Shown here: positions 1,392-18,600 of the stretch, piece after piece | Position numbering within the stretch: the first letter of the stretch is position 1 | Layout: every line of letters starts with the position of its first letter | IMG/VR virus record: IMGVR_UViG_3300033141_003634 | Span: 1 to 38,673 of that record | DNA: 38,673 bases | Source of the DNA: a virus | Direction: 5' to 3' (one strand) | Made by a program: the position numbers and the translations under genes | The notes under the pieces: model-generated | What the model was told of the DNA's origin: nothing | What the model saw: the letters and a program-made list of their open reading frames with translations, nothing else | Database searches by the model: none

Positions 1392-2522
1392 ATGGCAGAT
1401 ACAGCCTTCAGAAGTGACAGCAACCTTACGGTAATCAAGTGGTCCGCGGCCTTGTACCGCGAGGCCATGAAGAACCTGTACTTCGGCAAGTTGGTCGGTA
1501 CAGGCAGCAACGCGATCATCGAGAGGAAGACCGATCTGACCAAGGACGTGGGCGACCAGATTCGGTTCGGCCTGCGGATGCGGTTGACCGGTCAGGGGCG
1601 CAGCGACGATCAGGCGCTCGAAGGGTACGAAGAGGCGCTGACGTTCCACGACTTCTCGACGAAGGTGCACCTGCGGGCCAACGCGGTCCGCGCCGCCGGC
1701 AAGATGTCCATGCGGCGGACCAAGTTCGACATTCGTTCCGAGGCCCGCAGCGCGCTGGCCGACTGGCTGCGTGAGATGATCGACGACGACACGGTCTTGG
1801 CCCTTTCGGGTCTGGCCAACCCGGCCATCGTCGATGACGACGGCGCGGTCGAATCGGCGGTCTCGCCCTCGACCAACCGCAAGTGGTATGGCGGCCAGAA
1901 CGCAAGCGGGAGCATCGCCGACGATTCCGGCTACGACCTGGGCGATTCGGGCATCGCCGACGGGGGCACCAGCGAGATCAGCTCGTACCTGTTCGGCACG
2001 GCGGTCATTTCGCTCATCAAGCGAAAGGCACAGCTTGCCACGCCGAAAATCCGCCCGGCGGTCGTGGACGGCAAGGAAGTGTACGTCATGCTGATCCATC
2101 CGTACCAGGCCAAGGCACTGAAGGCCGAGACCGCCTGGAAGGAGGCCCAGCAGTACGCCCAGGTCCGCGGCTCGAAGAACCCGCTGTTCACCGGAGCGTT
2201 GGGCATGTGGGACGGCGTTGTGATCCACGAGTACGAGCGGATCCTGACCCGTACAGGCGACGGCACGGGCACCGATCCCAGCACGTACTTCGAGTCCGAC
2301 GACCCCTGTGCCCAGAACATCACCGTGGCCCGGGCGTTGTTCCTCGGTGCCCAGGCTGGCGTGCACGCCTACGCCCAGATGCCTGGCTGGTACGAGAAGA
2401 ACTTCGAGTACGGTCGGGTGCCGGGCGTGGCGACGGACATCATCTACCGCGCGGCCAAGACCAGGTTCAACAGTGAGGACTTCGGCGTCATAACCGTCGA
2501 TACGGCGGTGGCGACCGACTAG
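1392..2522 (+). CDS. Major capsid protein, N4 gp56 family
   Basis: A 376-residue protein starting behind AGGAGTGA. The N-terminal part (residues ~12-80, including WSAALYREAMKNLYFGKLVG and the DLTKDVGDQIRFGLRMRLTG stretch) and the later VMLIHPYQ segment match what I know of the N4 gp56-like major capsid family (HK97 fold). The order is typical: N-arm, E-loop region around 45-100 with long beta strands, a spine helix at ~115-140 (SEARSALADWLREMIDD), then P- and A-domain segments. It forms the icosahedral shell. It sits between the scaffold and a small capsid-associated gene, the usual order. Family membership is recognised by eye and not aligned. Confidence 0.88.
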   Translation: MADTAFRSDSNLTVIKWSAALYREAMKNLYFGKLVGTGSNAIIERKTDLTKDVGDQIRFGLRMRLTGQGRSDDQALEGYEEALTFHDFSTKVHLRANAVRAAGKMSMRRTKFDIRSEARSALADWLREMIDDDTVLALSGLANPAIVDDDGAVESAVSPSTNRKWYGGQNASGSIADDSGYDLGDSGIADGGTSEISSYLFGTAVISLIKRKAQLATPKIRPAVVDGKEVYVMLIHPYQAKALKAETAWKEAQQYAQVRGSKNPLFTGALGMWDGVVIHEYERILTRTGDGTGTDPSTYFESDDPCAQNITVARALFLGAQAGVHAYAQMPGWYEKNFEYGRVPGVATDIIYRAAKTRFNSEDFGVITVDTAVATD

Positions 2523-2535
2523 CGGCTTGAAATAG

Positions 2536-2586
2536 ACGGGCGCAGCGGTGCGGGCGGCTTGGCGGCGGCCCGCGCCGCAGGCCCGT
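2536..2586 (+). promoter_or_regulatory. Strong GC hairpin between capsid and next gene
   Basis: An outer stem ACGGGC / GCCCGT and an inner 10-bp stem CGGTGCGGGC / GCCCGCGCCG (one G-T pair) enclose a ~12-nt loop. There is no T run, so it is unlikely to be a full terminator. It more likely stabilises the 3' end of the abundant capsid mRNA or dampens read-through. Confidence 0.5.
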
Positions 2587-2638
2587 TGCAGAAGCAAGAG
2601 GCACCAATCATGGCTCAAGTTGAAAGGAGCACAATGAG

Positions 2639-3199
2639 ATGACTACTCCACAAATCGATACGAAGGTCGGCACGCGCCGCGGCTCGACGCTGGTCTACTC
2701 CAACACGGCGATCTCCGCCGCCGGCGGTGCCAGCAGCACCGACGAGTTCACGTTCCAGGACTCAAACGGCGTTGATCTGGGACCCAACCTGGTCGGCGGC
2801 GACCTGCAGGCCGGGGACGTGATCGTCGTTCGCGGCCAGGTGCAGCATACCGGCAGCAACACCGGCTCGGCGCTGACGCTGAAGGTCAAGGTCGCCACGG
2901 AGACCATCGTCACCGAGGCGTTCACGATTGCCGCGCAGAACGACCTGGTCAACTTCGAGGTCTACGTGGTCGTCAATACCGCCGGCTCCTCCGGCAAGGT
3001 GGCCGGCTGGGGCCAGTGGTCCAGCAAGCTGAACACCATCCACGCGGTGGTCCTCGAGACCAAGGCCGAGGCGTCGGAGGACCTGTCCGGCGACGTGCAG
3101 GTCAAGGTCACCGGCACGTACAACGAAAGCAACGCCAACAACGCGGCGAAACTGAACTTCCTGACCGTCGAGGTCATGAAGAACAAAGACAGCGCGTAA
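2639..3199 (+). CDS. Capsid-associated / decoration-like protein (186 aa)
   Basis: A 186-residue, Thr/Ser/Gly/Val-rich protein with alternating hydrophobic residues throughout, which suggests an all-beta (immunoglobulin-like) fold. It has no membrane segment and almost no Cys. Start ATG 2639 lies 9 nt after GAAAGGAG. A two-codon mini-ORF (ATG-AGA-TGA at 2634-2642) overlaps the start, so translation could be tuned by it. Position right after the major capsid gene is typical for head decoration or head-fibre proteins, and the predicted beta character agrees. I cannot name a family, so the call is inferred from context and composition. Confidence 0.6.
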   Translation: MTTPQIDTKVGTRRGSTLVYSNTAISAAGGASSTDEFTFQDSNGVDLGPNLVGGDLQAGDVIVVRGQVQHTGSNTGSALTLKVKVATETIVTEAFTIAAQNDLVNFEVYVVVNTAGSSGKVAGWGQWSSKLNTIHAVVLETKAEASEDLSGDVQVKVTGTYNESNANNAAKLNFLTVEVMKNKDSA

Positions 3200-3316
3200 C
3201 GAACCACCGGTTCCGTTTCTCTCCCCTCTCTGCCTGTCGGGCAGACAGGCAACCGCGCCGGGGGCGGGGCATAGCCCGCCGCCTCGCCCCCGCCGAGGGG
3301 AGAAAGGAGTTGCCCG
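3200..3316 (+). promoter_or_regulatory. Intergenic region with two hairpins
   Basis: The 117-bp gap holds two inverted repeats: a short palindrome at 3231-3251 (listed separately) and a larger GC hairpin at 3259-3292 with CGGGGGCG / CGCCCCCG and inner GGGC-ATA-GCCC. No T tract follows. A good ribosome site (AAAGGAG) for the next gene lies at the end. The hairpins probably act on mRNA decay or partial termination after the capsid genes. Confidence 0.45.
3231..3251. repeat. 21-bp palindromic repeat element, copy 1
   Basis: GCCTGTC-GGGCA-GACAGGC flanked by T and A: a perfect 8-bp stem with a 5-nt loop. A second copy in the opposite orientation (loop TGCCC) lies at 12690-12710 inside the 2,152-residue protein gene. 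Twenty of 21 positions agree. Two copies in a compact phage genome suggest a dispersed, REP-like palindrome. Confidence 0.6.
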
Positions 3317-4036
3317 ATGAGCATTTCCGCTGCCGACGTACTGGCCGCCGTCAACGACCGGCTCAGCCGTTCCGAGACCTCGGTGGACGATGAGCTGAAG
3401 GCGGTACTGGTCGAGCTGGCCCAAGTGGATGACTTCCTCGAAGCGTCCAGTACGGTCACCACGTCCGCCGGCACGCAGAGCTACTCGGTGCCCAGCGACT
3501 TCAAGCGGGCCGAGAAGCTGTCCATCGTCAACGGCAACGTCCTGACGCGCATCAGCTGGGACGACTACCGTGCCCGCATGGAGGACACCGACCCCGTCAA
3601 CGCCTGGGACGAAACCGAGACCTACGGCCAGGGCGACCAGTGCACCTACGGCGGCAAGACGTACAGCAGCTTGCAGGACGATAACCTCAACCACCAGCCC
3701 GACACCGAGACCAGCTGGTGGCAGGAGGACACCTCCGGCAGGGGCGAGCCGCAGGAGTGGACGTTGCGGGACGACCAGTTCTACTTCTGGCCGGTGCCCG
3801 ATGCGATCTACACCATCAGCGTCGAATACTTCGCCCACCATGCCGAGAGCACGACCGTGAGTTTTCCCGACCGCTTCCGCGAGTGCATCTACTGCGGCGT
3901 GACCGCGGCGGTGGCGGCCAAGTACCAACTGCTTGAGACCTATTCATTCTGGCGCGGCAGGTGGGCCGAGCAGGTTCGCATACTGCGAGAAGCCCAGCGC
4001 CCGGTTTACCGGTCGGTGCGATACCGCGACCTTTAG
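3317..4036 (+). CDS. Head-tail connector/adaptor with CBM5/12-like insert
   Basis: A 239-residue protein behind AAAGGAG. The N-terminal ~90 residues and the C-terminal ~90 look like a phage head-tail adaptor (head completion) protein: an N-terminal helix, a beta segment (TQSYSVPSDFKRAEKLSIVNG), a final strand pair around residues 146-170 (EWTLRDDQFYFWPVPDAIYTI), and a long C-terminal helix with Tyr/Arg. Between them, residues ~95-135 have the pattern of a carbohydrate-binding module of the chitin-binding ChiC/CBM5-12 type: W97, Y103, G106-D107, Y111-G-G, Y116, N123, P128 and W134-W135. The adaptor call comes from gene order and general pattern; the insert is seen directly. The insert could display a sugar-binding loop at the neck. 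Confidence 0.65.
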   Translation: MSISAADVLAAVNDRLSRSETSVDDELKAVLVELAQVDDFLEASSTVTTSAGTQSYSVPSDFKRAEKLSIVNGNVLTRISWDDYRARMEDTDPVNAWDETETYGQGDQCTYGGKTYSSLQDDNLNHQPDTETSWWQEDTSGRGEPQEWTLRDDQFYFWPVPDAIYTISVEYFAHHAESTTVSFPDRFRECIYCGVTAAVAAKYQLLETYSFWRGRWAEQVRILREAQRPVYRSVRYRDL

Positions 4037-4051
4037 CGTGAGGAGTCGAAC

Positions 4052-4945
4052 ATGGCGTTTACCAATAGCTACGACAGCACCAAGCCCGATTGCAGCACTA
4101 CGCCGACCCAGTTCGTCACCGAGGTACGGGTTGGCGCCAAGGACGCCCTGCGTGAGCGGCTTGATGCGGATCACGATTTTTCCACGGCCAACATCAACGA
4201 CGACACGTTGTGTGGCAAGCACAAGGTCGTGCACCTGCTGCAGCAGGCTTCCGACCCGACGGTCGCCGCCGACGAGGGGGCACTGTACACCAAGGAAACC
4301 GCCTCCAAGGCCGAGTTGTACTACAAGGATGAGGATGGCAACACGGTCGCCCTGACCTCCGGCGGTCAACTGAATGTCGGCGTCGATGGTACGACCCTCC
4401 AGTACAGCAGCGGTACGCTGTCCGTAAAAGACGGCGGCATCGACACCACGCAACTGGCCGACGACGCCGTCACCGCCGCCAAGCTGGCAGATGACGCCGT
4501 TGATACCGACGCGATTCAGGACTCGGCGGTCACCACGGCTAAGATCGCCAACGACGCCGTTGACAAGGACAAGGTCACACCAGGCAGCGCCGGTGCCGAC
4601 GCGGACTACTACGGCGTAGCCGTCACGGCCTGCGGCACGTACAGCGGCGCAAGTGCCGGCAAGACCGTCACGCCGTTTCCCTCCGGCGTACAGATCACCC
4701 ACATAGTCATCCGCCGCCATGACGCCGCCACGGGCACGGGCGGCGTGGAGGCGATCAAGGGAAGCGACGGCAATACGCGCGTCTGGAAGCAGAAGGACAA
4801 TACCGTCTACGAACAGTCGGAGTTCACCATCGGCACCAACAGTTTCACGATGAACGGCGTATCGAGCAACGACGACTACCTGGACTACTTCAACAAGGCG
4901 GGCGAAAACTACAGCTACGTGGCGCACGGAGTGTGGGCTAGCTGA
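4052..4945 (+). CDS. Tail-fibre-like structural protein (297 aa)
   Basis: A 297-residue protein behind GTGAGGAG. Residues ~125-175 carry imperfect Asp/Ala repeats of the form DTTQLADDAV, TAAKLADDAV, TTAKIANDAV. This motif is common in shafts of phage fibre and tail-appendage proteins, where it forms a beta-helical or triple-stranded segment. The N-terminal ~70 residues would be the virion-attachment part, and the C-terminal ~110 residues (Gly/Thr/Tyr-rich, beta) the head. It ends two bases before the tail-hub gene, so the two are probably co-translated. Its role in host contact is inferred from the repeat type and the neighbours. Confidence 0.65.
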   Translation: MAFTNSYDSTKPDCSTTPTQFVTEVRVGAKDALRERLDADHDFSTANINDDTLCGKHKVVHLLQQASDPTVAADEGALYTKETASKAELYYKDEDGNTVALTSGGQLNVGVDGTTLQYSSGTLSVKDGGIDTTQLADDAVTAAKLADDAVDTDAIQDSAVTTAKIANDAVDKDKVTPGSAGADADYYGVAVTACGTYSGASAGKTVTPFPSGVQITHIVIRRHDAATGTGGVEAIKGSDGNTRVWKQKDNTVYEQSEFTIGTNSFTMNGVSSNDDYLDYFNKAGENYSYVAHGVWAS

Positions 4946-4946
4946 C

Positions 4947-7043
4947 ATGCCGGCCAACATCAGACAATTCGGCATCTTTTCCCCGGTGATGGGCCTGCGG
5001 GAGGACATTCCCTCCGTACTGCTGCCTGAGACCTTCACCGAGGACAACGAGAACGTGCTGCTGCGGGACGGGATGCTTTCGCGGGCCGCCAAGCCGGTCA
5101 AGGAGCTGTACCAGAACACCGACGTGGGCGGCGGATCGAAACTGGACCAGGCGTCCACGCCCGACGGCAATCCGCTGCTGTACCTGTACTGGTACGTGAA
5201 GCGCAACGGCGACAGGCGGCTGCTTGGGTTCACCAAGGACCACGTGTACGCATGGTACGAGCAACCTACGATCGGGCAGGCCCTTTTCACGGGCACCGGA
5301 CTGGACGACATGTCCACCGGCGGCACCTACACTGGCACGGCGGTCAAGAACTTCCGCGTGCAGATCGACAAGGGGCAAGTCTCCGTAACGGCCTTCGTCG
5401 ACGGCGGCTCCGGTCCCCCGCAGAAGGTGCTGGTCACCGCCGCCGGCCATAATCTTACCGACGGCGACACCGTCCAGATCGGCGGTTCACCCAACTACAA
5501 CGGCTCCTACACCGTCAGCGAGGTCTCCGGCGACACGTTCAAGATAGAACACTCCTGGGACGGCGACGATTCCAGTGCCACGACCACCGCCGAACGGGTC
5601 CCCAACACGTACAAGTGGTCCAACGACGGTGGGCAGACGTGGGAAGCCACCGAGCAGGACATCACCAGCGGGTGGGTGACCCTTGAGGACGGGGTACAGA
5701 TACGCTTCTTCATAAGCGTCATAGGCCACGATACGGGCGACTACTGGGACTTCTTCGCGGCTTACGCGGGAAGCTGGCACCTCAAGCACACCTGTGGTTC
5801 GTCCTGTTCGAACTGGTCCGTCACGACCTACAACGACAAGGTCATCGCCACCAACAACGTCGATAAGGTCCTGTACTGGGACGGCAGCGGCGACTTTGCG
5901 ATCCTGGACGATCCCACCAACGGCATCGACCTGGGCGGCGGCAGCTACCTGACCGCCGCGAAGGTGGTCCAGGAGTTCGAGGGCTACCTGTTCCTGGCCA
6001 ACGTGACCGTGGACGGCACGCAGTACCCCCAGAGCGTCTACTGGTGCAGCCACCTGGACGAGGAGAACTGGGACGGGGGCGATTCCGGCAGCCTGGTCAC
6101 GCCGGACCCGTACTTCATAACCGCGATGGGCCGCTGGCAGGACTTCATGTTCATCTTCAAGGAGCGGTCGATCTACCGGCTGTGGCTCGGCGGTGAGTTC
6201 ACGTTCACCACCGCGGCCCACAGCACCCTGCTGGGCACGCAGGCACCCAACAGCGTGGTCAACGGCGAACGCGGCGAGCTGTACTTCTTCAGCAGTGACT
6301 TCCACTTCCGCATGATCGCCGGTTCGCTGGGCGATATGCCGGTGGTCAGTCACGGGATCGACTCATACGTGCGGGACATTCCCGACGACGCCGTGCCCAA
6401 CATCTTCGGGCACTTCGTGTATCGGCTGGGCCAGGTCGAGTGGGCCGTACCGATAAACAACAGCAGCACCAACAACGTGGTGCTGACGCTCAAGGACGGT
6501 GTGTGGACCCGCCAGGACGCGGCCTACAGCTGCTACGGGCGCTACCAGCGGATTCTCGGCTACGCCAGCCTCTGCGACATGCCGTTCGCCACGGTCTGCT
6601 CGATTCCCGAAGACTTCAGCTTCTGCAGCAGTGCCTTCGCGGCCAACGAGCCGGTCGACATGGCCGGCGACTACGACGGCAAGGCCTGGGCACTGTATCA
6701 CAGCACCACCGACGACGGGGACGACTACGAGGGTTACGGCGTGCTGGCCACCAGCCTGGCCAAGCCGCCGAACCTCTCGCAGTTCAAGCGGATACTGTGG
6801 CTACACACTTACTTCAAGCCCACGTACCGGCCCGACGAGGACGTGAGCATCTACGTATCGGTGGACCAGGCCCCCTATACGCTGGTGGCGACGGCCTCGA
6901 CCTACGATCAGTCCGCCGACGTGGTCCGCGTGGTCACGGCCTGCGACCTGCGCGGCAGGCATTTTCGGTTCAAGTTCCTCAGCGACAAGCCGTTCAACCT
7001 GATCGGCATGATCGCCGAGTTCATCCCCGTTGGAGAGCGATGA
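4947..7043 (+). CDS. Tail hub/tube protein, T7 gp12 / P22 gp10-like (probable)
   Basis: A 698-residue protein starting with the pattern common to podovirus tail-hub or stabilisation proteins: after a short arm, GLREDIPSVLLPETFTE, then NVLLRDGMLSRAAKPVKE. The rest contains several repeats typical of a beta propeller (for example VLYWDGSGDFAILDDP, RWQDFMFIFKERSIYRLWLG, GELYFFSSDFHFRMI). Residues ~163-205 (AAGHNLTDGDTVQIGG, YNGSYTV, DTFKIEHSW) form an FCCH-like beta domain often inserted in phage tail proteins. It would form the nozzle below the connector. It overlaps the next gene by 4 bp (ATGA). The propeller assignment is from pattern only. Confidence 0.72.
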   Translation: MPANIRQFGIFSPVMGLREDIPSVLLPETFTEDNENVLLRDGMLSRAAKPVKELYQNTDVGGGSKLDQASTPDGNPLLYLYWYVKRNGDRRLLGFTKDHVYAWYEQPTIGQALFTGTGLDDMSTGGTYTGTAVKNFRVQIDKGQVSVTAFVDGGSGPPQKVLVTAAGHNLTDGDTVQIGGSPNYNGSYTVSEVSGDTFKIEHSWDGDDSSATTTAERVPNTYKWSNDGGQTWEATEQDITSGWVTLEDGVQIRFFISVIGHDTGDYWDFFAAYAGSWHLKHTCGSSCSNWSVTTYNDKVIATNNVDKVLYWDGSGDFAILDDPTNGIDLGGGSYLTAAKVVQEFEGYLFLANVTVDGTQYPQSVYWCSHLDEENWDGGDSGSLVTPDPYFITAMGRWQDFMFIFKERSIYRLWLGGEFTFTTAAHSTLLGTQAPNSVVNGERGELYFFSSDFHFRMIAGSLGDMPVVSHGIDSYVRDIPDDAVPNIFGHFVYRLGQVEWAVPINNSSTNNVVLTLKDGVWTRQDAAYSCYGRYQRILGYASLCDMPFATVCSIPEDFSFCSSAFAANEPVDMAGDYDGKAWALYHSTTDDGDDYEGYGVLATSLAKPPNLSQFKRILWLHTYFKPTYRPDEDVSIYVSVDQAPYTLVATASTYDQSADVVRVVTACDLRGRHFRFKFLSDKPFNLIGMIAEFIPVGER

Positions 7044-7312
7044 GCCATGCACGCCACAGGTTCGAGTTTCTGCGCAGAAGGCCCATCAGTCGCCCCGGCC
7101 CACGCGCCGTTCCCGGACAGCGCGACCAGGACGACGAGTTGGCCGATACGGTGGACGGTACCTACGGGCCGGATGTGCTGGAGTTCGTGCTGGCGATGGA
7201 GGCGTACAAGAAGATCAACAACCGGCGGTTTCCCCGCTGGTCGGAAGTCTACTGGATCTTTCGCAAGCTAGGGTACAGAAAGCCGTGCCACCGCAAACGT
7301 CGAAAACGATAA
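7040..7312 (+). CDS. Small hypothetical virion-region protein (90 aa)
   Basis: A 90-residue basic protein whose ATG overlaps the stop of the tail-hub gene (ATGA, 7040-7043). The frame stays open upstream inside the hub gene, but GAGAG before 7040 and the overlap favour this start. The first half is Arg-rich (FLRRRP, then Arg/Pro), the middle acidic, and the second half has aromatic residues (RWSEVYWIFRKLGYRKP) before a strongly basic end. The segment EFVLAMEAYKKINNRRFPRW resembles small phage proteins of unknown role that follow tail genes. No function can be given. Confidence 0.7.
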   Translation: MSHARHRFEFLRRRPISRPGPRAVPGQRDQDDELADTVDGTYGPDVLEFVLAMEAYKKINNRRFPRWSEVYWIFRKLGYRKPCHRKRRKR

Positions 7313-7791
7313 TGCGGCCCGTCTTCGAGCGGCTTCGGTCGTTCGAGGCCGTCGAGGAGCAAATCCGCGCGATATGGGAAGAGCTTGGGCGCGCATATGA
7401 GCGGATCGCCGTGGACATCATCCGGCAGGACACGGCCCGCTTCTTGGCACAGATCGGCACGCCGGCGGTCGCCGACTCGCCGGCGAAGAATCGCTGGACC
7501 TACCCGATCACGGAGGTGGTCAAGACCGACAGCGGCTACAGCGGCTTTACCGCCAAAGCCGGCGGACGGACCGGCACGGCGTACAACGTGATCGAGTACA
7601 TGAACGACGGTTCCGGCAAGGAGGGCAACGGTGTGACGGTTTCGAACCTGTCCTCCAGTCAGTACGACTTCGACATCCAGCCCGCGCCGGCGGGACTGAT
7701 TACCTGGTGTTGGGAGGTGCCGCTGGCCAACAGCAAGGACGTGGAATACTGGTTCTGTTACGAGAATGGGGTGGACGGCACGTGCACTTGA
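7312..7791 (+). CDS. Hypothetical structural protein (159 aa)
   Basis: A 159-residue protein whose ATG at 7312 shares its A with the stop codon of the previous gene (TAATG), indicating coupled translation. Residues 1-45 look helical and charged (a possible virion anchor). The rest (from ~60) is beta-rich with many Thr/Gly/Tyr (TGTAYNVIEYMNDGSGKEGN, VTVSNLSSSQYDFDI) and ends with two Cys. The design, helical anchor followed by a beta domain, suits a small appendage or tail accessory protein, and the gene sits just upstream of the PTPYS repeat protein. I do not recognise a family. Confidence 0.65.
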   Translation: MRPVFERLRSFEAVEEQIRAIWEELGRAYERIAVDIIRQDTARFLAQIGTPAVADSPAKNRWTYPITEVVKTDSGYSGFTAKAGGRTGTAYNVIEYMNDGSGKEGNGVTVSNLSSSQYDFDIQPAPAGLITWCWEVPLANSKDVEYWFCYENGVDGTCT

Positions 7792-8339
7792 GCCGATTGT
7801 TCGACTATCTGATCGACTTGTGCTGCCTGTGCCTGGCCGGCATCTGGCATCAGGCCGGCTGTTGCTGCTCGCCGACGCCCACGCCCTACTCGCCGACTCC
7901 GTACAGCCCCACACCCTACAGCCCGACACCGTATAGCCCGACACCGTATAGCCCGACGCCATACAGTCCTACTCCTTACAGTCCGACGCCGTATTCGCCT
8001 ACGCCTTATAGCCCGACGCCGTACAGCCCAACGCCGTATTCACCGACACCCTACAGCCCAACGCCCTACAGCCCCACGCCGTACAGTCCGACCGGTCCCT
8101 ACGACCCTTGCTGCCAGGCGACTTATCCGGTCAGCAACCATCAGGTTTGTTACAACGATGGGGACTGCGTTGACAGCGGTTTTCCGGACACGGTCGATGT
8201 TGCCTGCGCGTCGGATCCCGACTGCGCTGCCTGGACGGGCGACTGCACATATACGAAGGGAACCACGATGTACTGTTGGGAAAACAACTGCTACATCGAC
8301 TACATCTATTCCAGCAACGATTGCGCACCGCCATCATGA
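7782..8339 (+). CDS. Cys-rich surface protein with 14 PTPYS repeats
   Basis: The likely start is GTG at 7782, behind GGGGTGG and overlapping the previous gene by 10 bp, giving 185 residues; TTG 7788 is an alternative. An N-terminal hydrophobic Cys-rich stretch (residues ~8-30: LIDLCCLCLAGIW then GCCC) is followed by 14 perfect copies of Pro-Thr-Pro-Tyr-Ser (DNA 7878-8087). The C-terminal ~83 residues hold about ten Cys and aromatic residues, like a disulfide-knotted extracellular domain. The repeat is mucin-like: dense Ser/Thr/Tyr hydroxyls between prolines make an extended rod that is easily glycosylated. Its stop overlaps the start of a glycosyltransferase gene (ATGA), which suggests the rod is that enzyme's substrate. 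This last point is inference. Family unknown. Confidence 0.72.
   Translation: MHLSRLFDYLIDLCCLCLAGIWHQAGCCCSPTPTPYSPTPYSPTPYSPTPYSPTPYSPTPYSPTPYSPTPYSPTPYSPTPYSPTPYSPTPYSPTPYSPTPYSPTGPYDPCCQATYPVSNHQVCYNDGDCVDSGFPDTVDVACASDPDCAAWTGDCTYTKGTTMYCWENNCYIDYIYSSNDCAPPS
7878..8087 (+). repeat. 14 tandem 15-bp units encoding PTPYS
   Basis: Fourteen in-frame 15-bp units, each coding Pro-Thr-Pro-Tyr-Ser without a single amino-acid change. At DNA level the units differ at many third positions (CCG/CCC/CCA/CCT, ACG/ACA/ACT, TAC/TAT, AGC/AGT/TCG/TCA); only neighbouring units 4 and 5 are identical. The repeat is therefore old and kept for the protein rather than freshly expanded. Confidence 0.9.
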
Positions 8340-9640
8340 TCGAATGCCAGGACCGAATAATCGTCAGCGACACGCACATCCGCTGCAAGCGGATCGAGGC
8401 GATCACGGGCCAGACGCACTGGCTGGTGCCGACGGTCTGCGCCCGGTGCACGGACGAATGGATAGCACAAAAGGCCGCCGAATTGACTGCGTCCGTTCAG
8501 TCGGCGCGCGCCGCCTCGGCGGTGCCGCAGTTTTCGATGGTCCTGCCGTGCTGCGAGGAGGACCCCGCCGAGGTCGCCGCCACGATCCAAAGCGCCCGGC
8601 AGTTCGGGGCCGGCGAGGTGATACTGGTCGATGACGCCAGCGAAACCCAGCGCTACGACGATTGCGGCGCGGACGTGTTGATCCGCAACCGCGAACGTCT
8701 CGGCGTGGTCGGCAGCCGTGGCGTCGGCGCCCAGGCCGCCGGCAAGCCGGTCGTGGTCGTCTCCGACGCCCATTGCCGCTACACCGCGGGTCTGCCGTGG
8801 CTGGCCCACTATGCGTTGTCGGCCCGCGGACTGATCTGCGCGGCGGTCGCCTCGCTTGAGACCGGGCGCATACACGGCTTCGGCGCCAAGCTGCTGTACA
8901 AGCGGACCGACCCCAAGGTCGTCTGGAAATACGTGTCCCGGCCGCCGGCGGAACGTCTCTCACCGATCACGGGACTGATCGGCAGCGTGTACGCGATCAG
9001 GCGCGACGTGCTGAAGTTCATGGGCGGCTGGCCGCCGCTGGGCCTGTGGGGCTACTCCGAGTGCGCCATGGCCCTGCAGTGCCACGTAATGGGCGTGCCG
9101 ATGTACGTGGCCCGCGATGCGTTGATCTACCACCGCTATCGCAAGCGATTCCCGTTCAAGGTGCCGCACAAGGAGATTGAGTGCTCGGCCATCGTGGTCC
9201 ACAACCTGCTGTTCGAGCCGGCCACGCTGGAAAAGCAGAACCCGCGATTCCGCCGCAGGTATCCCAAGGCTTACCAGCGGGCGATGGAACTGTTGAAGCG
9301 GCCCCAGCTGCGGGCCTTCCGCGATCACGTGCAGGCCAATCGCGTCCGCAACGATCACGAGGTCTACCAGATCATCCGTCGCGGCGACTTCTCCGCCGAC
9401 GCCGAAAGGATCGAGCAATACGTTCAGCAGTGCCTGCGCTGCCGCTATTGCACCACCGAAAAGCTCGATCAGTCCGCCGAGGTCCCGGCCCTCGTCCGCG
9501 GGGCCGGCAACCTGATTCACGGTGTGCTGGGGCGGCTGGGCGTCAAGGCCCTGCGATGCACCAAGTGCGGTTGCTTCGTGCGGCTGAAGCGACCGCTGTT
9601 TCTCATGAGGGATTGCAAGCATTTCGAGGCCAAGCCATGA
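8336..9640 (+). CDS. GT2-type glycosyltransferase with zinc-binding ends
   Basis: A 434-residue protein; ATG 8336 overlaps the stop of the repeat-protein gene. Residues ~65-330 have the GT-A glycosyltransferase-2 pattern: FSMVLPCCEED (nucleotide-binding strand 1), EVILVDDASE (VDD at 98-100), VVVVSDAHCR (DAH at 144-146 in the place of the DXD metal site), and GSVYAIRRDVLKFMGGWPP with LWGYSECAMALQ, matching the acceptor-side segment of GalNAc-transferase-like enzymes. The N-terminus has Cys 4, 17, 35 and 38; the C-terminus (366-427) has CxxCxxC, then CxxCxC, then a single Cys, a likely zinc ribbon. It would move a sugar from a nucleotide-sugar to an acceptor. Its position in the virion block suggests it glycosylates the adjoining PTPYS protein, which is inference. 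Confidence 0.82.
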   Translation: MIECQDRIIVSDTHIRCKRIEAITGQTHWLVPTVCARCTDEWIAQKAAELTASVQSARAASAVPQFSMVLPCCEEDPAEVAATIQSARQFGAGEVILVDDASETQRYDDCGADVLIRNRERLGVVGSRGVGAQAAGKPVVVVSDAHCRYTAGLPWLAHYALSARGLICAAVASLETGRIHGFGAKLLYKRTDPKVVWKYVSRPPAERLSPITGLIGSVYAIRRDVLKFMGGWPPLGLWGYSECAMALQCHVMGVPMYVARDALIYHRYRKRFPFKVPHKEIECSAIVVHNLLFEPATLEKQNPRFRRRYPKAYQRAMELLKRPQLRAFRDHVQANRVRNDHEVYQIIRRGDFSADAERIEQYVQQCLRCRYCTTEKLDQSAEVPALVRGAGNLIHGVLGRLGVKALRCTKCGCFVRLKRPLFLMRDCKHFEAKP

Positions 9641-9906
9641 GCGCTGAGAAGACAAAGTTGCGAGACGAGATTCGCCGACGGCTGCTGGACTGCCAGGCTT
9701 GCCGCTGGTTCGTCGGCGTGCGGGCCGACCTGGATCGTGCGTTCGACGCGATGAACGGCGATGACATATGGCTGGTCGAGGACGTGGTCCAGCATGAGGG
9801 CTACACCATAGCCAGGTGCGACCGCTGCAGCAGCGTCAGGTCGTACTACCTGGTCCTGTTGGGGCGGATCAAGTGCCCCGGTTTTCAGATACGAAAGGAG
9901 CAGTGA
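9637..9906 (+). CDS. Small zinc-ribbon-like protein (89 aa)
   Basis: An 89-residue protein whose ATG overlaps the glycosyltransferase stop (ATGA at 9637-9640). Cys are spaced as CxxC (C19, C22), 38 residues, CxxC (C61, C64), 15 residues, then Cys79 followed by Pro-Gly-Phe. The C-terminus of the upstream glycosyltransferase has the same layout: CxxC, 35 residues, CxxC, exactly 15 residues, Cys. This suggests a shared, duplicated zinc-binding module. It could be a separate subunit that docks on the enzyme or on the virion. The function is unknown. Confidence 0.68.
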   Translation: MSAEKTKLRDEIRRRLLDCQACRWFVGVRADLDRAFDAMNGDDIWLVEDVVQHEGYTIARCDRCSSVRSYYLVLLGRIKCPGFQIRKEQ

Positions 9907-9908
9907 AG

Positions 9909-10688
9909 ATGAGTCTCGGCGATTTCTTTTCCGGTCGTTATCGCAGGCTGCCCGGTCCCGAACGGCTCCCGGACGAGTGGGCCGACTGGGCCGAGAATTG
10001 GATGCTGGACCTGCTGCGCGAGCCTGTGCGCTACCCGACCTTGCAGGTACCGCCCCTGTCGGCCCAGCAGCAGGCGGGCCTGAGCCTGCTGGACAAATAC
10101 GTCGCCGGCGAATTGTTCCAGGACCCTCGCACCAGCCCGTTCTACGAGGGCCTTCGCAGCGAGCTGGCCAGGGCCACCGAGGAGGGCGTCGGCGCACTGC
10201 GCCGGCGGGCGCAGGCCGCCGGCATGGCGCGTTCGACGCCGGCGATGCGGGCCGAGTCGCAGCTGCGTTCCACGATGGCCGAGAAGGGCACCAGTCTGCT
10301 GGGCAGGCTCTACGAGCAGGAACGGGCGTTGCACAGCCCGCTTTCGCGGCTGGGCGCGGCCTTCGGCTACGGCGGGTTACCACGAGAGGTCGAAAAAGAG
10401 CGCGCCGCGTCCGAGTACACCAAGCAGCTTCAAGATGTAGAGGCCCCGTACCGGTTGCAGGCCCCCCTGGCAGCCAAGGCCGCGACCATCCGGCCTTATT
10501 ACCAGCCGATGTACGTCCGCGAGCCGTCCGGTTTCGAGAAGGCGATGAACGTGGCGGGCACCGTGCTGACGCTGCTGGCCCACACGTTCCCCGGCCGCTT
10601 CGGACTGAAGGCTGAAACGCCAGACACTGGCGGCAACGTCGGCTTCAGCGCCGGTATCCCCGGGCTGCTCGGAATCAGTTACGGTTAA
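9909..10688 (+). CDS. Internal virion protein, probable (259 aa)
   Basis: A 259-residue protein; ATG 9909 follows AAAGGAG. Residues ~1-90 contain Trp-rich amphipathic segments and a Gln/Ala helix. Residues 90-150 (ARATEEGVGALRRRAQAAGM, TPAMRAESQLRS) are a long helical stretch of the type found in podovirus ejection proteins such as T7 gp14. A hydrophobic segment around 215-232 (AMNVAGTVLTLLAHTF) could enter a membrane, and a Gly-rich tail follows. It is the first of a series (259, 434 and 2,152 residues) that resembles the gp14/gp15/gp16 set of ejected internal proteins. The assignment rests on order and composition. Confidence 0.6.
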   Translation: MSLGDFFSGRYRRLPGPERLPDEWADWAENWMLDLLREPVRYPTLQVPPLSAQQQAGLSLLDKYVAGELFQDPRTSPFYEGLRSELARATEEGVGALRRRAQAAGMARSTPAMRAESQLRSTMAEKGTSLLGRLYEQERALHSPLSRLGAAFGYGGLPREVEKERAASEYTKQLQDVEAPYRLQAPLAAKAATIRPYYQPMYVREPSGFEKAMNVAGTVLTLLAHTFPGRFGLKAETPDTGGNVGFSAGIPGLLGISYG

Positions 10689-10700
10689 GGAGTCGATACG

Positions 10701-12005
10701 ATGGCGGTTTACAGATTCCCCAATCCTCTGCCCTTCGGCTACGTCGATGACACGACGGCCAACATCACGGCGCTGCAGCGGGCCGTGATGCCTATACTAC
10801 AGGCCCGACTTCAGGCCCAACGCGCCAGCGCCGCCGCCGCGCGGCCCAGGCCGCGTTTCAGGGGCGCTTTGGCGATACCGGGCCTCGGCGGCGTGTCGTT
10901 CGGCGGTGCGCCAGTGCCGATCGCCGGCGCTTCTGGAGTGGACCTGTTCACCAGGGCCTTTGAGAACTACACCAGGCAGCGTGACGACGAGCTTCTCAGC
11001 AAGCTGGTGGAGGCGAAGGACCGCGACGAGGTGGCCGCCATACTGCGCCAGCACGACGTTGAGGACAAGCCCCCGCTGGCCGTCAGGCTGGGACGTGCCC
11101 TGGGACTGCTGCCGGCCTCCGCGATCACGCCGCTGGAGCGGACAATCGGACAGTCGCTTATCTCAAGCAAGCTGAGGCCCAAGGAACTGAGACAGCGGAT
11201 GTTCGATTTGCTGACCGCCGAAGAGCAGAAGCGGGCCGCCGAAGCTGCGTACCTGCCGCAACCGCAGGGTCCCAAGACCACGGCCATGCCCTGGTGGTGG
11301 CAATACGCCTCACCCCAGGAGCAGGAAAGCTACCTGCAGATGCAAACCGGCCTGAAGGGCCGGCCCGGGGCAGTGCCGTTCGAGGCCCAGGGTATGCCCG
11401 CCGAGGATGTCAAGCGCTACAAGGAACGCCGACTGCTGGGCTTGACCGGACCGATGTACGAACTGCGCCGCACAAGGCCCAGCGACTACGAAACCGCCGT
11501 TCGCTACCAGCTGAATCTGGAAATGACGCCCGAAGAAAAAGCCCAGCAGCAGGTGCGTGAGGAACAGGCCGCGCGAGGCAGGCGAGCCGAAAAGCGTCAG
11601 CAGGAAGCGCACCAGTTGCGGATGCAAGAAGGCAAGCTGCGCCTGCAGCGAGAGAAACTGGAGGGCAGGGATCGGCAGGCCGGCCTGGACGACGATCCCG
11701 ACTACCAGGACATGAAGGCCGAATACGCCAGGCTCAATGACCTAAAGAAGCTGTACGACCCGGTCGACGACGAGCAGCAGTTAAAGCAGCTCGAGACGCG
11801 CAAGATCGAACTGAACAAGGCGATGATTAACCGGATCCGCGCCCTGGCCAAGGCAAGGGCCAAGCCGCCGCAGACGGCCCAGGCGGCGATCAACCAGATC
11901 ATCAAGTTGGGCAAGGCCAGCCTGGTGACCGTCGATCAATTGACCGAGCAAGCCAAGCGCAAAGTGAGGCAGTGGCTCAATGAACACCCGCAGTACCAGA
12001 AATAA
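10701..12005 (+). CDS. Internal virion protein, probable (434 aa)
   Basis: A 434-residue protein behind TAAGGAGTC. It is largely helical. The N-terminal third is Ala/Arg/Gly-rich; residues ~95-175 hold helices with DDELLSKLVEAKDRDEVAAI; and ~270-400 form a strongly charged coiled coil (Glu, Arg, Gln and Lys repeats). It lacks Cys and membrane segments. Between a 259-residue and a 2,152-residue protein of the same module, it is likely another component of the DNA-ejection core. The last 26 bp overlap the polysaccharide-deacetylase gene in another frame. No family is recognised. Confidence 0.58.
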   Translation: MAVYRFPNPLPFGYVDDTTANITALQRAVMPILQARLQAQRASAAAARPRPRFRGALAIPGLGGVSFGGAPVPIAGASGVDLFTRAFENYTRQRDDELLSKLVEAKDRDEVAAILRQHDVEDKPPLAVRLGRALGLLPASAITPLERTIGQSLISSKLRPKELRQRMFDLLTAEEQKRAAEAAYLPQPQGPKTTAMPWWWQYASPQEQESYLQMQTGLKGRPGAVPFEAQGMPAEDVKRYKERRLLGLTGPMYELRRTRPSDYETAVRYQLNLEMTPEEKAQQQVREEQAARGRRAEKRQQEAHQLRMQEGKLRLQREKLEGRDRQAGLDDDPDYQDMKAEYARLNDLKKLYDPVDDEQQLKQLETRKIELNKAMINRIRALAKARAKPPQTAQAAINQIIKLGKASLVTVDQLTEQAKRKVRQWLNEHPQYQK

Positions 12006-12621
12006 CCTGGAAATCCTGATGTTTCATGCCTTCGGCGACGCGAGCAAGGAAATGCTGAACGTCAGTGCCGAGCGTTTCCGCAGCGTCTTGATTGAGCGCC
12101 TTGAACAGCGCCGGCCTATCAGCCTGGCTACCTTCGCGTGGTGGCGACGCGAGGGCGGCCCGCTGGATCAGGACTACTTCGCGGTGACCATCGACGATGG
12201 CTACGAATCGGCGTTCACCGTAGCCCTGCCGATCCTGCTCGAATTGCAGGTGCCCGCCACGTTCTACGTGGTGCCAGGATGGATCGGCAAGCCGCCCTAC
12301 ATGAACTGGCGGCAGGTGCGCGCGATCAGCTACACCGAGCAGCCCGCGCTGACGGTCGGCTGCCACGGGTTGGACCATACCGAACTACGGGCGGGCGTGT
12401 CTCTGGACGAGCAAATCGGCTGTGCTTTGGCCGAGTTGAGGATTAACGGGCTGTGCGCCCGTCATTTCGCCTATCCGCGCGGAGTGTACACGGCCCAGGC
12501 CGTCCAGTACCTGCGCGATCGTGACATCGACACTGCCGTGACCACGCGCCGAGGGGTCAATGACCTGGCCGACGATCCGCTGCTGCTGCGCAGGAGGCCG
12601 ATCATGGAGCATCGCAAGTGA
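11980..12621 (+). CDS. Polysaccharide deacetylase (NodB/CE4 family)
   Basis: A 213-residue protein with the NodB-homology motifs in order: FAVTIDDGYESA (residues 67-78, metal/catalytic D72-D73), GCHGLDHTEL (127-136, the H-x3-H metal ligands H129 and H133), and FAYPRGVY (163-170, the substrate-side motif). CE4 enzymes remove N- or O-acetyl groups from chitin, peptidoglycan or capsular/exopolysaccharide sugars. The ATG at 11980 overlaps the previous gene by 26 bp, and its stop overlaps the next gene's GTG, so it belongs to the virion transcript. No signal peptide is visible. It might modify surface glycan during entry as a virion part, or act on the host envelope at lysis. Both are inference. 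Confidence 0.82.
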   Translation: MNTRSTRNNLEILMFHAFGDASKEMLNVSAERFRSVLIERLEQRRPISLATFAWWRREGGPLDQDYFAVTIDDGYESAFTVALPILLELQVPATFYVVPGWIGKPPYMNWRQVRAISYTEQPALTVGCHGLDHTELRAGVSLDEQIGCALAELRINGLCARHFAYPRGVYTAQAVQYLRDRDIDTAVTTRRGVNDLADDPLLLRRRPIMEHRK

Positions 12622-15600
12622 CCACAGCCCTTGAATTACTACAATCCGAGGAGCAACGCGACACCGAATCGCCGAACCTGCCTGGGCCTCGCCTGTCTGC
12701 CCGACAGGCAGGCACGCAGACAGGGGGCGTCTCGGCGCTGGATGATTTTCTCACTTGGCGGAAGGCCAGGGACCGCGCGATCACCCAGCGGTATCACGCG
12801 GTGATGAACTGGCCCCGGCAGCTTGCCCAGCAGCAGGCCGAGTTGTTCGCCCCGCCCCCGGTCGAGCCATCCTCAATCAAGCCGCCGCCCGTTGAGCCGC
12901 CCATAGCGGCCCTTGAACAATACCTCGCCGAGCAGCCGGTCGTCCTGCCCGAAAGCACTACGCCGCTGCCGCAACCGCAGCGACCGCTGACGCACCAGGA
13001 GAAGGTCGCATCCTATTATCAAGGTCTGAAGGAAGCGTCGCCCATCAAGCGGCGCATTCTCAAGACCATCGCCGTGGCGTCGAACCTGTTCGGCGTGCCG
13101 GAGTTCCTCAGCCGAATCGGTCTGCATCCGGGCGAGATTTTCGCCTCGGCGGCCAAGGACGAGGACCTGATGGGCGAGTTTTCGGCGTTCATGGAGGCCC
13201 GCCGGCAATTCAACCGAGAACAGGGCATCGGCGAGCGCGTTTGGGACCTGCCATCCGAGATTGGCCGGACCTTGCTGGAGTATGCGATCCTCTCACCCAT
13301 CGCGGCAGGCAGGTACTTATCGCAGGCCAGGCACGCCCCCAAGCTGGTCAAGGCCGTGCGTTCAGCCAAGGAAACCGCCAAGCTGTTCGCGCTGCATGAA
13401 GCCGTCCAAGCGCCGCGGGCTGGCGAGACTGCCATCGAGAGGGGCAAGAGCATCCTTCAGTCCGCCGGTTTCGGTGCCGCCGTCGGCGCTGCCGGGCCGC
13501 TGCCCACGAAAATCCGCGCCCCGTCGGTAGTGGCGGGAGGAACGGCAGCTGCCTATGCGACCTCCGGCGGAGACCTGGACTCCACGTTGGACACCTTCGT
13601 AATGCTGACGGCCTTCGAGGGCCTTGGCCTCGCCCGCGAGGCGCGGCAGTGGCTGCGCGGTAAGCTAGCCGGTCGGGCGATCACGCCTTCGCAGGTCAAG
13701 GCCACCGTACAGGAAGCCGAGAACGACGCCGTCAAGATCAGGCGCTATATGCGCAAGCACGGGAGGCTGCCGGATTGGGCGGTGCGCAAGTACAACGTAC
13801 CGATCAGTCGCCGCCCCGAAACGCCGCCAAAGGCCCGCCCCCAGCCGGCGGCCAAGCCGGCAGAGAAGCCCCCGCAGGCTCCGCAGGAAGGCCCGCTTCT
13901 GGTACCGAAGCCCAAGCCCCGCGCCAAGCCGGCACCGAAACCACAGCCACGGTCCGGGCCTTTGGTCACACCGCCGCCACAGCCGGCCAAGGAGGCCGAG
14001 GCCGAGCGTAGACTCGGCGACCTGAAGCACCTCGACCCAGACGAGATCAGAGTTTATCGCGTCGAGGTCGAGGAGGCCCCCACACTGGAGGCGGCCCGCC
14101 GCATTCTCGAAGAGGCCGAAAGGCTGAACGCCCGGATAGGGGAGGCTAAGGCCGCGAAGGCTAGCGAGCAACCCGCCGAACAACCGGCCCGTCCGCCAGC
14201 CAAACCGGCAGAGACGCCGCCCGCGCCGCTCAAACCGGCGCAGAGAGTGCCGCGACCGGTCACTTCGCCTCCCGCTGAGGCCAAGGCAATCGAGCCAGTC
14301 AAGCCGCCGTCAACGCCGTCGGCGGCGACGGCCGGGATGAGCGAGGAGGCGCTGATCGACGAGGGCCGCCGGGCCGTGCCCGGCATCCGTTTCCATCATG
14401 CCGCGGAGGCCGGCAGGCTGACGCGGAGGCTGACGCAAGGACAGATCACACAGGAACAGTTCGACCAGCAGGTTGCGCGGTGGGCGGCTCAGGGACTGAT
14501 CGCCAGGAAAGTCGCTGCCGGGAGGCCGGCCCAACTGCGGACGCCCAGCGGCTCGCACGCCGTGCGTTATGCTATCGTCGAGGCCGGTGACCTAGTGCCG
14601 TCGCATGACCCGCTGTCCTTCGCACGTGACTCGCGCTATCCGGCCGGCGTGCAGGAGCGGCTCTACCATAACAGCGGTGCCGAGCGGATGAAGGTCATCC
14701 AGCAGGCCAACCAGTTCGACCCCGGCTTCCTGCTGGCCGACGTACCTACGGCCACCGACGGGCCGCCGATCGTCGATTCCAGCGGCGTAGTGCTCAGCGG
14801 CAACGGCAGGACGATGACGCTCAAGCGCGTTTATGCCAGGAGCGCGCCCGCGGCCCGGGCCTACCTCAAGGCGCTGAGGGAGAAGGCCGAGTCGTTCGGC
14901 CTCGATCCGCGCGCGATAGACGACTTTCAGATGCCGGTGCTGGTCCGCCGCGTCGAGGACGACCTGACGGTCGAGCAGATGCGCAGACTGGCCAGCGAGT
15001 GCAACCAGGTCTTCACGCAGGCGATGGACCCGATAGCCGACGCCATCAGCCGGGCCAAGAGGGTCAGCACGGACACGCTTGAGCACGTGGGCGAGAGGCT
15101 CACCCGGACGGCTTCGACCGTCAGAGAGATGCTCGGCAGCCCGCCGGCGGCGAGGGACATAATCAACCGCCTGCAGAAGGACGGCGCCGTCACGGCCAGG
15201 GAGCTGGAGCGGTTCATCGACCCGCGCACGGACCTGCTCAGCGAGGAGGGCAAGCTGCTGATCGAGCGGATACTGCTCGGCTCCGTCATCGACGATCCCG
15301 ACCTCATGCGGACCGTCCCCAGGTCGATCACGCAGAAGCTGGAGCGTTCGCTGGCGGAGCTGGCCAGGATTCGCGCGCGTCCCGAATGGGACATCAGCAA
15401 GGACCTGCGGGACGCGCTGACGGCCTACGCCGACTGGGACCGCACAAGGCAGACGCTGAACGATTATCTGTCGCAGATGGACATGTTCGGCTCGGTGCCG
15501 GCCAAGACCAACCCGAAGGCCACCGCGCTGCTGCAGTTCCTGGAGAGGTCCAAGCCCACGGAGGTCAAGAAGGCATTCGCACGCTACGCACAGGAGGCCA

Positions 15601-18600
15601 CCCGCGATATTCCCGGACAGGAGACGTTCCGTTTCGTCGAGAAGCCCACGCCGCAGGGCGCGTTCGAGCGGGCCTTCCTGCGGCCACCGGACGAAGGAGT
15701 CGTCGAGCAGGGCACGTTGTTTGCTGAGGTCGCCAAGAAGCTGCGCGCCACAGGCGGGACGCGCGGCAGGCGTTATCCGCCCGTCGAGGGCGAGCAGGTC
15801 GCCCGACCGCCGCGCCCCGCTGAAATGCCTCCGCCCAGCGAGCTTAGGCCCTTGCCGAGCAACGAGATGGTGCGTCTGGCCCGCGACCTGCTAGCGCGCT
15901 ACCCGATCATCACCAAGCGCCTGCGGCGAGCGCGCGGCATGTTCAAGGCCGAACCGCTGAAACCGGAGATACTGATCCGCGCCGATCAGGCCGGCGAGTC
16001 GGGCGAACTGCTTAAGGTGCTGGCCCACGAGATCGGCCACGCAATCGACTGGCTGCCGGACAAGACCCTGGCCAGGGGCAACATCCTGGGGCGAATCGCC
16101 AGCTTGAAGCGCTACTTCAGGCAAACCATCGACGCGCTGCCGACTGAACCGTCGCAGGCGCTGACGCCCCGCGATCGCGCGAAGATTCGCAGGCGGGTAG
16201 CCGCCCAGGCCAAGGCCGATGGTTACACCGGCGAGGACCTGAAGGCCGAGATCAAGGTCCGCTACGCCGCGGCCATACAGGAAGAAATCGAGGCACGCGA
16301 CCTGGTCTCGGCCAATGAGGTTCGCCGCGAGCTTGCCGACCTGATCCTCTGGTGGCGCCCGCGCAAAAGCGGACTGCTGAGCGACTACGAACGGCAGGGC
16401 GCCGAAATGTACGCCGACGCACTGTCGGTGTTCTTGAACGCCCCGGACGAACTGCGGAAACGCGCCCCGCTGTTCTGGCGCAGCTTCCTGGCCTACATGA
16501 ACCGCAAGCCGGAGGTCCGCAAGGCATATGTCGAATTGTTCGACCTGCTGAACCGCCCGCAGGAGGAGATCATCGCCGAGCGACGCAAGGAGCTGTACAA
16601 GGGCTTCAAGCGCGGCGAGGAAATCCTTACAGCCGCCGCGAAACAACCACCGAAGCGATTGCCGCTGACGCGCGAGCTTGAGAAGTGGCTGTTGGGCCAG
16701 GAAGCGCCGCTGGAATACGTGGAACGCAAAGCCGCCAAGGCCCGCCGGCCCGTGCCGTTCGAGAAAAAGGCGTCCACGCGGTTCGACGAATACCTTCTGC
16801 GGCACAACAAGGAAGTGCTGCTGCTGGACCGCTTCAAGCACGAGATCGACGAGCCGCTGCACGAGGCCGGACTGACCCGCGAGCAGGCCGGCGAATACCT
16901 GGCCGCCAGTCGAATGGTCACCGAGCGCAAACAGCTGGCCAACCCCTACGGCTTCACGCCTGAAACCGCCCAAGAACAGCTTGACGACCTGCGGCGAATC
17001 CTGGGACCGGAAAAGTTTTCCAAGCTGGAGCAACTGGGCCAGCGCTTCCGCCAGATCGTCTACGAACTGGCCGAGGAAGGCGTCAGGAGCGGCTCCATCA
17101 ACGCCGAGGTCTTTGAGACCAAGATCAAGCCCAACAAAGGCAACTACGCGACCTTCGCCGTGCTCGACTGGCTGGAGAAGGACCCGCACATAGCCGCGAC
17201 GGTCAAGCCGATGATCGGCACCTTCAAGCCCATCGGCAATCCCTACACGGCCTCACTGGTCAAGACCCTGGCGCTGTCGCGGCTGAACGAGATTCAGCAG
17301 GTCAAGCGCTCGATCATCGAGATGATCCAGCAGGTCGAGCCGCACGAGATCACCCACCATCCGTGGCGCAAGTACGGACGCACGCCCCGACCGCGCCGCG
17401 GCAAGGGCCTGATCCCGATACTGGAGAACGGGCGGCTGGCGCATTACGAGGTGGACGCCTATATCGCCGAGGTCCTCGATCGGGAGGGCCTCGACCGCTT
17501 CGCCGCCGTATTCAACCGGGTGATGTACGGCGTGTTCCACCCGGTGTTCGTCAAGTACAACCCCGGCTGGGCCATCTACAACCCGCTGCGCGATTACCTT
17601 CGCACGCTTGTGAACTTGCCGTTGAAATCTCCGCTGCAGCTGCCGGGCCAGGCGGCCAGGCTGGCCGTCGAGACCGCCAAGGCCGGCAAGGTTGCTTGGA
17701 AGCTGGCCAGCGGCCAGTTCGACCAGTACGCGCGCCAATTGCTGTCCCTGCGAGCCTTGGGGCCGACGCGCATCCGGGACATCGGCACGGGCGAGGAGGA
17801 CTACATCAAGGTGGTCCTGGCCAACGCGGGAATCCTGAAAACCGGCGAACCGCGCCGCAGGACGCTGGCGCGAATCGGCATGGCTGCCCTGGACTTCGTC
17901 GAGAAGGTCAATACCGCCAGCGAATACCTGGGCAAGATCGCCGGATACGAAACGGCCCTCAGGACCGGAATGCCGCCCCGCGAGGCGGCGCACTTCGCCC
18001 GAAATTACGCCGGCACGCCCAACATATATCGCGGCGGCAGGTACAAGCGACACCTCAACGCCCTGATGATCTACTTGAACGTCGCCCTGCAGGGCTACCG
18101 GGCAGACCTGAAGATGGCCACGCAGCCCAAGACGGCCTTCGGCTGGTGGTTCAAGGTCTCTACGGTGGACCTTCTGCCAAAGTTTCTCATGCACCTGGCC
18201 GCCGCCGGCGCGTTCGGCGTGGCCGTCAAGGAGATCATGGACAAGGTCAGCGACTACTACAAATCGACCTATATCGTCATACCGGTCGGCATGCGCACCA
18301 ATCCGAGAACCGGCAAGGACGAGGCCGTCACGATCAACCTGCCGCACACCGACACGGGCCGCGTGTCCGCCAAGGTTCTCTGGAAGCTGTTAAATGAAAG
18401 CAGCCTCGCCGGCAAGATCAGCGGTGCTATCGGCGCGGCGTACTCCGAGGCCCCCAACCTCAGTCCATTGCTGGACATCGGCACCAAGTGGGTGCAGATG
18501 GCCGCCGGCTTCAACCCCGTCGATCCCTGGGCGGGCCGCAACGTCATCAGCCGCGACGCTTGGCTGGTCCGCAATGACAATCCCTGGCCGGCGATGCGGG

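Follow-up and report, generated by a model that had tools for sequence, protein, structure and literature searches.

Can a phage encode both a mucin-like rod and the enzyme that would coat it with sugar? The question is raised by three overlapping genes, for a protein with PTPYS repeats, a glycosyltransferase (GT) and a small Cys-containing protein, in a 38,673-base virus record (IMG/VR IMGVR_UViG_3300033141_003634), the whole of which was analysed and is referred to here as the window. The 114-bp direct terminal repeat of this record indicates that the 38.7-kb phage genome is complete. Its left part forms a virion block, which encodes the major capsid protein (PF13252, 7e-62; phrog_334), an SU10-type adaptor, a fibre-like protein (4052-4945) and a structural protein (phrog_3287); the terminase gene lies at 35007-36425. 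These assignments place the three genes among virion genes, as a first-pass annotation made from the letters alone had proposed. The capsid protein is ~31-35% identical to podovirus capsids such as those of BcepIL02, LASTA and PEp14 (among the matches listed), and the phage is probably podovirus-like, with a host belonging to the Planctomycetota. The virion block holds a second carbohydrate-active gene, a polysaccharide deacetylase (11980..12621, plus strand; PF01522, 6.5e-12), directly before a gene (12618-19076) whose 2152-residue product carries a ddrB-like ParB domain (PF18763) and is likely an internal or ejection protein. Elsewhere in the genome, a gene with a strong match to DUF5131 (29202-30101; 4e-77) adjoins a C5-cytosine methylase gene (28426-29256).

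Between a structural gene (4947-7043) and a conserved virion-block gene (9909..10688, plus strand) lie five coupled genes on the plus strand, which encode a 90-residue protein (7040..7312), a 159-residue tail-module protein (7312..7791), the PTPYS protein (7782..8339), the GT (8336..9640) and the 89-residue Cys protein (9637..9906). The first is joined to the preceding structural gene by ATGA at 7040 and the second to the first by TAATG at 7310, while the PTPYS gene opens with a GTG codon at 7782, within gene 7312-7791. The overlaps reported in the first-pass annotation are exact, with ATGA at both remaining joins (8336-8339 and 9637-9640). Gene 9909..10688 marks the end of a variable slot. 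Its homologue in the capsid relative L005 (12359-12565; 41% identity, 5.5e-10) follows a slot where a GNAT-like gene (11383-11850) stands in place of the repeat and GT genes; the protein encoded after the GNAT-like gene has a PYNPNAPYAPPNYPYFFPYNP-rich N-terminus. Most of the capsid relatives L002-L013 end before the slot, and L004 (66%) ends short. Another capsid relative, L007, carries a different family-2 GT (12190-12978) between its capsid gene and a pectate-lyase-like tail gene.

The PTPYS protein (185 residues) consists of a short N-terminus ending in CCC, 14 perfect PTPYS units (7878..8087; 28 Ser/Thr per 70 residues) and a Cys-rich C-terminal domain. Both the perfect repeats and the Cys-rich domain had been called at first pass, and the latter is real, with 16 Cys residues in the protein. 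The 14 units are identical as peptide and occur in 13 distinct DNA versions, with both AGY and TCN codons used for Ser. Pairwise codon differences between units number 288 synonymous and none nonsynonymous, although about three-quarters of the single-base changes open to the units would be nonsynonymous (470 versus 160 synonymous), so that selection acts on the peptide and not on the DNA. The same wobble-only variation rules out a recent slippage array or DNA repeat artefact, as well as a wrong reading frame. Tandem Pro/Thr/Ser-rich repeats conserved as peptide typify mucin-like proteins, and the PTPYS array is such a repeat. No other PTPYS phage came up in a search with a triple-PTPYS pattern. 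In a shifted register the rod becomes (YSPTP)n, which is close to YSPTSPS, the heptad repeated in the C-terminal domain of RNA polymerase II; the likeness is probably a convergence of turn-forming Pro/Ser/Thr/Tyr repeats.

The place of this protein in the virion is best approached through the tail-module gene before it. The product of 7312..7791 contains a conserved YNxxExxN...GNGV...NGxDGTC domain (alignments A3 and A7), which in relatives serves as a marker directly upstream of the gene for a 'CCC' protein. Where readable, the gene after the marker encodes an N-terminal CCC or CC.C cluster (WHQAGCCC in the window; WHQNCCC, HAHACCC and HMACCC in L029, L044 and L023) followed by variable sequence, and a gene for a zinc-ribbon-like protein often comes next; at several loci the marker domain is itself fused to the Cys segment and then to a long Ser/Gly rod. 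Given its position after the marker and its CCC cluster, the PTPYS protein is this phage's form of a CCC tail protein that is widely found. Its N-terminal hydrophobic stretch is borderline for a secretion signal (KD 1.57); other CCC proteins start ~30 residues or less from the Cys cluster and have no secretion signal. Across loci the neighbours of the CCC and repeat proteins are genes of tail-tip or adhesin type. Of the two placements offered by the first-pass annotation, a fibre or a head projection, comparative synteny thus favours the tail side and not the head.

The same genes point to the host. The DNA pattern of 7312-7791 was found at 14 IMG/VR loci and 5 genome loci, the latter all in Planctomycetota MAGs; its product has no relative among annotated phages, and its AF2 model is confident yet finds no fold match in the PDB. 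The domain of the 90-residue protein is common in Planctomycetota chromosomes, being matched in 136 of 392 genomes of the phylum (E<=1e-5), about a third; its sole match among 72,556 plasmids is on an Aquisphaera (planctomycete) plasmid, and there is none among 50,697 phages. The two distributions make a planctomycete host likely.

The GT is a 434-residue GT-A enzyme of the DxH type with a family-2 profile match (PF00535, 4.2e-7), in line with the GT2-type transferase of the first-pass annotation. That annotation had further seen in it a resemblance to GalNAc-transferases, on which sequence, profile, fold and metal ligands now agree. Polypeptide GalNAc-transferases (GALNTs) lead a single-sequence search of the PDB (T10, 6.4e-9; T1, 4.7e-6). 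With a profile built from A5, an alignment of seven GT relatives on which the invariance statements below are also based, they are the first 14 PDB matches (best 3.5e-20) and are aligned over both halves of the domain; with most other GT-A enzymes the match is mainly confined to the N-terminal half. A Foldseek search with an AF2 model returned GALNTs as 50 of 50 among the matches listed, the model (six-sequence alignment, pLDDT 58) being weak overall and good in the core alone. D144-x-H146, a DxH instead of the usual DxD, and H266 are invariant across the seven sequences and align with the Asp, His and distal His of the GALNT metal triad, which in mouse GALNT1 is D209/H211/H344 (PMC4202792) and whose third ligand is the distal His (PMC4202792; PMC6994419). 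H266 sits in an HRYRK sequence aligned with the HxFRK/HxYRK segment of GALNTs. One conserved Glu on the acceptor side is missing, WGGE being replaced by WGYS. A DxH instead of DxD has been described as specific to families GT27 and GT60, both polypeptide Ser/Thr O-glycosyltransferases (PMC7185993). Sequence and model together lend strong support to the GT being closest to the polypeptide GalNAc-transferases.

The enzyme also departs from that family. Its profile matches are to family-2 GT models only, with a ~100-residue Cys-containing C-terminus and no ricin-like lectin domain, and the type II membrane anchor of GT27 enzymes is absent. Cys clusters occupy both ends (C4, C17, C35 and C38; C366, C369, C372, C408, C411, C413 and C427) and are of the same general kind as those of the repeat protein and the 89-residue protein. 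No transmembrane segment was found in the GT, whose highest 19-residue hydropathy is 1.38, or in the 89-residue protein, and the GT is accordingly predicted to be soluble. In view of the missing lectin domain and membrane segment and of the Cys clusters, we label the enzyme GT27/GT60-like and keep it outside GT27. Near searches of IMG/VR, annotated phages, plasmids and genome contigs found no close relative, and a strict HxYRKxxPYKV DNA pattern gave no match.

Kinship with polypeptide O-glycosyltransferases bears on what the enzyme might act upon. DxH alone is no proof of a protein acceptor, since bacterial chromosomal GTs also have it; some chromosomal relatives of the GT probably serve polysaccharide synthesis, to judge from the neighbours of L015. 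The GT might on this ground alter host surface glycans, in receptor masking or superinfection exclusion. Phage GTs with that role are known, namely the serotype-conversion enzymes of temperate phages, and the polysaccharide deacetylase lies nearby. We nevertheless regard such a role as distinctly unlikely: the enzyme has no transmembrane segment and no flippase-like partner was seen, it is translationally coupled within a late virion operon, and it is associated with Thr/Ser rods. Far less probable still, to the point of being very remote, is hypermodification of the phage DNA. Some phages do encode GTs that modify DNA (cited in PMC12619734), and this one has the C5-cytosine methylase, but the GT gene lies among virion genes and its product is similar to polypeptide O-glycosyltransferases rather than to DNA glucosyltransferases.

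If the rod is the acceptor of the GT, rod and enzyme might be expected to travel together, and the first-pass annotation had staked its reading on the gene pair being conserved in relatives. In a survey that started from the GT and took no account of the rod, pairs of this kind recurred in relatives. Phage L069 encodes, in order, a protein with a DECCC cluster, (TTTTTAAP)x7 and a Cys-rich tail, a Cys protein, and a GT with an N-terminal zinc-ribbon-like domain; the Cys-rich C-terminal domains of the window and L069 proteins are homologous (score 80 versus 37+/-7.6, reached in 0 of 1000 composition-preserving shuffles). In phage L068, a 762-residue tail protein (2341-4629) has four TTTTVPP/TTTTVAP rods that lie between Cys-rich domains, and the GT gene follows after 3.3 kb; a double-GT protein, further GTs and methyltransferases are encoded downstream of this rod protein. 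At Planctomycetota genome loci, a CCC protein with TTTTTTT directly precedes the GT (L058/L061) or a Cys-rich protein with TTTTTT overlaps its start (L057/L060), these rods being only 6-7 Thr as assembled and L057 stopping at a contig end. The Cys-rich tails of L057 and L058 are of a second type, homology to that of the window not being demonstrable by shuffle-scored alignment. The Cys gene of L069 is shared by L061 (score 200 versus 31+/-5). L067, L070/71 and L072 have the GT and no rod within the locus sequence. Of the 7 distinct GT loci of phage type, 4 thus have a rod or Thr run (L057/L060 counted by eye); for comparison, the figures are 1 of 12 for control loci selected by their capsid gene and 0 of 10 for GT loci in chromosomes, a difference that is suggestive given the small numbers. 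A locus in a Thermoguttaceae MAG (L047; 1633-4488 and 294-1436, minus strand) has in a row genes for a 951-residue protein with ~600 residues of Ser/Gly/Pro rod, a zinc ribbon, a GT-B enzyme (PF00534) and a radical-SAM protein; judged from its genes, it is the same rod, zinc ribbon and GT arrangement with an unrelated enzyme family.

Two further explanations turn on this pairing. The GT may glycosylate some other virion protein, such as the fibre-like protein (4052-4945) or the capsid, with the repeat protein a mere neighbour. Its position within the virion block would suit this, and the known virion glycosylation of phages concerns capsid and tail-tube proteins (PMC12363180); we judge it unlikely, as the GT stays with rod and Cys-rich proteins in relatives whose other structural genes differ. 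Alternatively, the rod could be an unmodified spacer of the polyproline type and the GT unrelated cargo. The slot is variable, with its GNAT-like gene in L005, and many CCC proteins lack both a rod and an accompanying GT; such a coincidence is quite improbable when the pairing of rod and GT recurs, even with a second GT family. A GT is absent from most loci that combine the marker with a CCC protein, and glycosylation is therefore not essential to the appendage.

The third gene of the set is harder to place. The 89-residue protein has the length given in the first-pass annotation and a CxxC/CxxC/C arrangement (C19, C22, C61, C64 and C80) compatible with the zinc ribbon proposed there; no confident Pfam, NCBIfam or PHROG family backs the name, and we treat it as a putative zinc ribbon. 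It is weakly similar to the GT C-terminus (score 43 versus 24.7+/-4.4; 2 of 400 shuffles). Free zinc-ribbon counterparts occupy its position in L036, L041, L047 and L066, and the L047 protein shows significant similarity to the domains at the N-termini of the GTs from L069 and L057 (0 of 400 shuffles). The occurrence of the domain as a separate protein or as part of the GT, depending on the module, suggests that zinc ribbon and GT work together; perhaps these domains help the GT to dock on the appendage.

We therefore favour, as probable though by no means secure, a reading in which the genes encode a tail appendage and a dedicated GT O-glycosylates its Ser/Thr-rich rod within the host cytoplasm. 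The repeat protein would be a small fibre, in which the (PTPYS)14 rod lies between the N-terminal CCC segment and a Cys-rich tip. Expression of the coupled genes late in infection would place repeat protein and soluble GT next to each other in the cytoplasm, where the enzyme would move a sugar, most likely HexNAc, from a host nucleotide sugar directly onto the Ser/Thr residues of the rod, either ahead of virion assembly or in its course. The glycosylated rod may then act as a stiffer, extended and protease-resistant spacer that bears the Cys-rich tip and shapes adhesion. More tentatively, and with greater doubt than confidence, we propose that mucin-type O-glycosylation has a prokaryotic counterpart encoded by phages of planctomycetes and related hosts. 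In it, a DxH polypeptide HexNAc-transferase that is soluble, has no lectin domain and is tethered by a zinc ribbon would share ancestry with GT27/GT60 and be dedicated to the interchangeable Ser/Thr/Pro rods of a modular tail adhesin. Such phages, whose host phylum is one for which phages are little known, would be self-sufficient in building glycosylated tail rods, from a small operon that encodes both the acceptor and the enzyme. According to PMC6994419, no GT27 enzyme has ever been described in a bacterium, so that the system, if real, would have implications for how mucin-type O-glycosylation arose; the compact soluble enzyme might also be useful for producing glycosylated repeat proteins in bacterial cells.

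Compared with known systems, the GT shares with GT27 and GT60 the GT-A core, the DxH, the distal metal-binding His and the H-x-Y/F-R-K-x-x-P-Y/F segment, but it differs from GT27 in lacking the ricin-type lectin domain and transmembrane anchor, in its Cys-containing, zinc-ribbon-like ends and in an identity of ~20%. Like eukaryotic mucins, the window protein has Pro/Thr/Ser tandem repeats conserved as peptide and a flanking Cys-rich domain, but it is much shorter, has a Tyr in each unit and no clear secretion signal, and its glycosylation is putative. Virion glycosylation is known from the mycobacteriophages Che8, Corndog and Myrna (Freeman et al. 2023, as cited in PMC12363180), where a phage-encoded GT decorates virion proteins; the GT of the window is likewise phage-encoded and placed among structural genes. 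The acceptors there are capsid and tail-tube proteins, and no GT-paired repeat rod is described in the available portion of that article (PMC12363180). To the view of the first-pass annotation that no described phage system has this exact set, it should be added that virion glycosylation by phage GTs as such is already known. In the cnm-pgfS pair of Streptococcus mutans, a co-transcribed downstream GT-A enzyme modifies a Thr-rich repeat adhesin and raises its protease resistance (PMC5856776). There too a Ser/Thr-rich repeat gene directly precedes a GT-A gene, as at the ATGA join at 8336 and in L057/L060 and L058/L061, with one gene between in L069. PgfS, however, is membrane-bound and accompanied by PgfM1, PgfE and PgfM2, and the system is cellular with an exported adhesin, whereas the GT of the window has no transmembrane segment. 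By analogy, cnm-pgfS of S. mutans would be the nearest proven parallel to the window genes, and mycobacteriophage virion glycosylation the nearest viral one.
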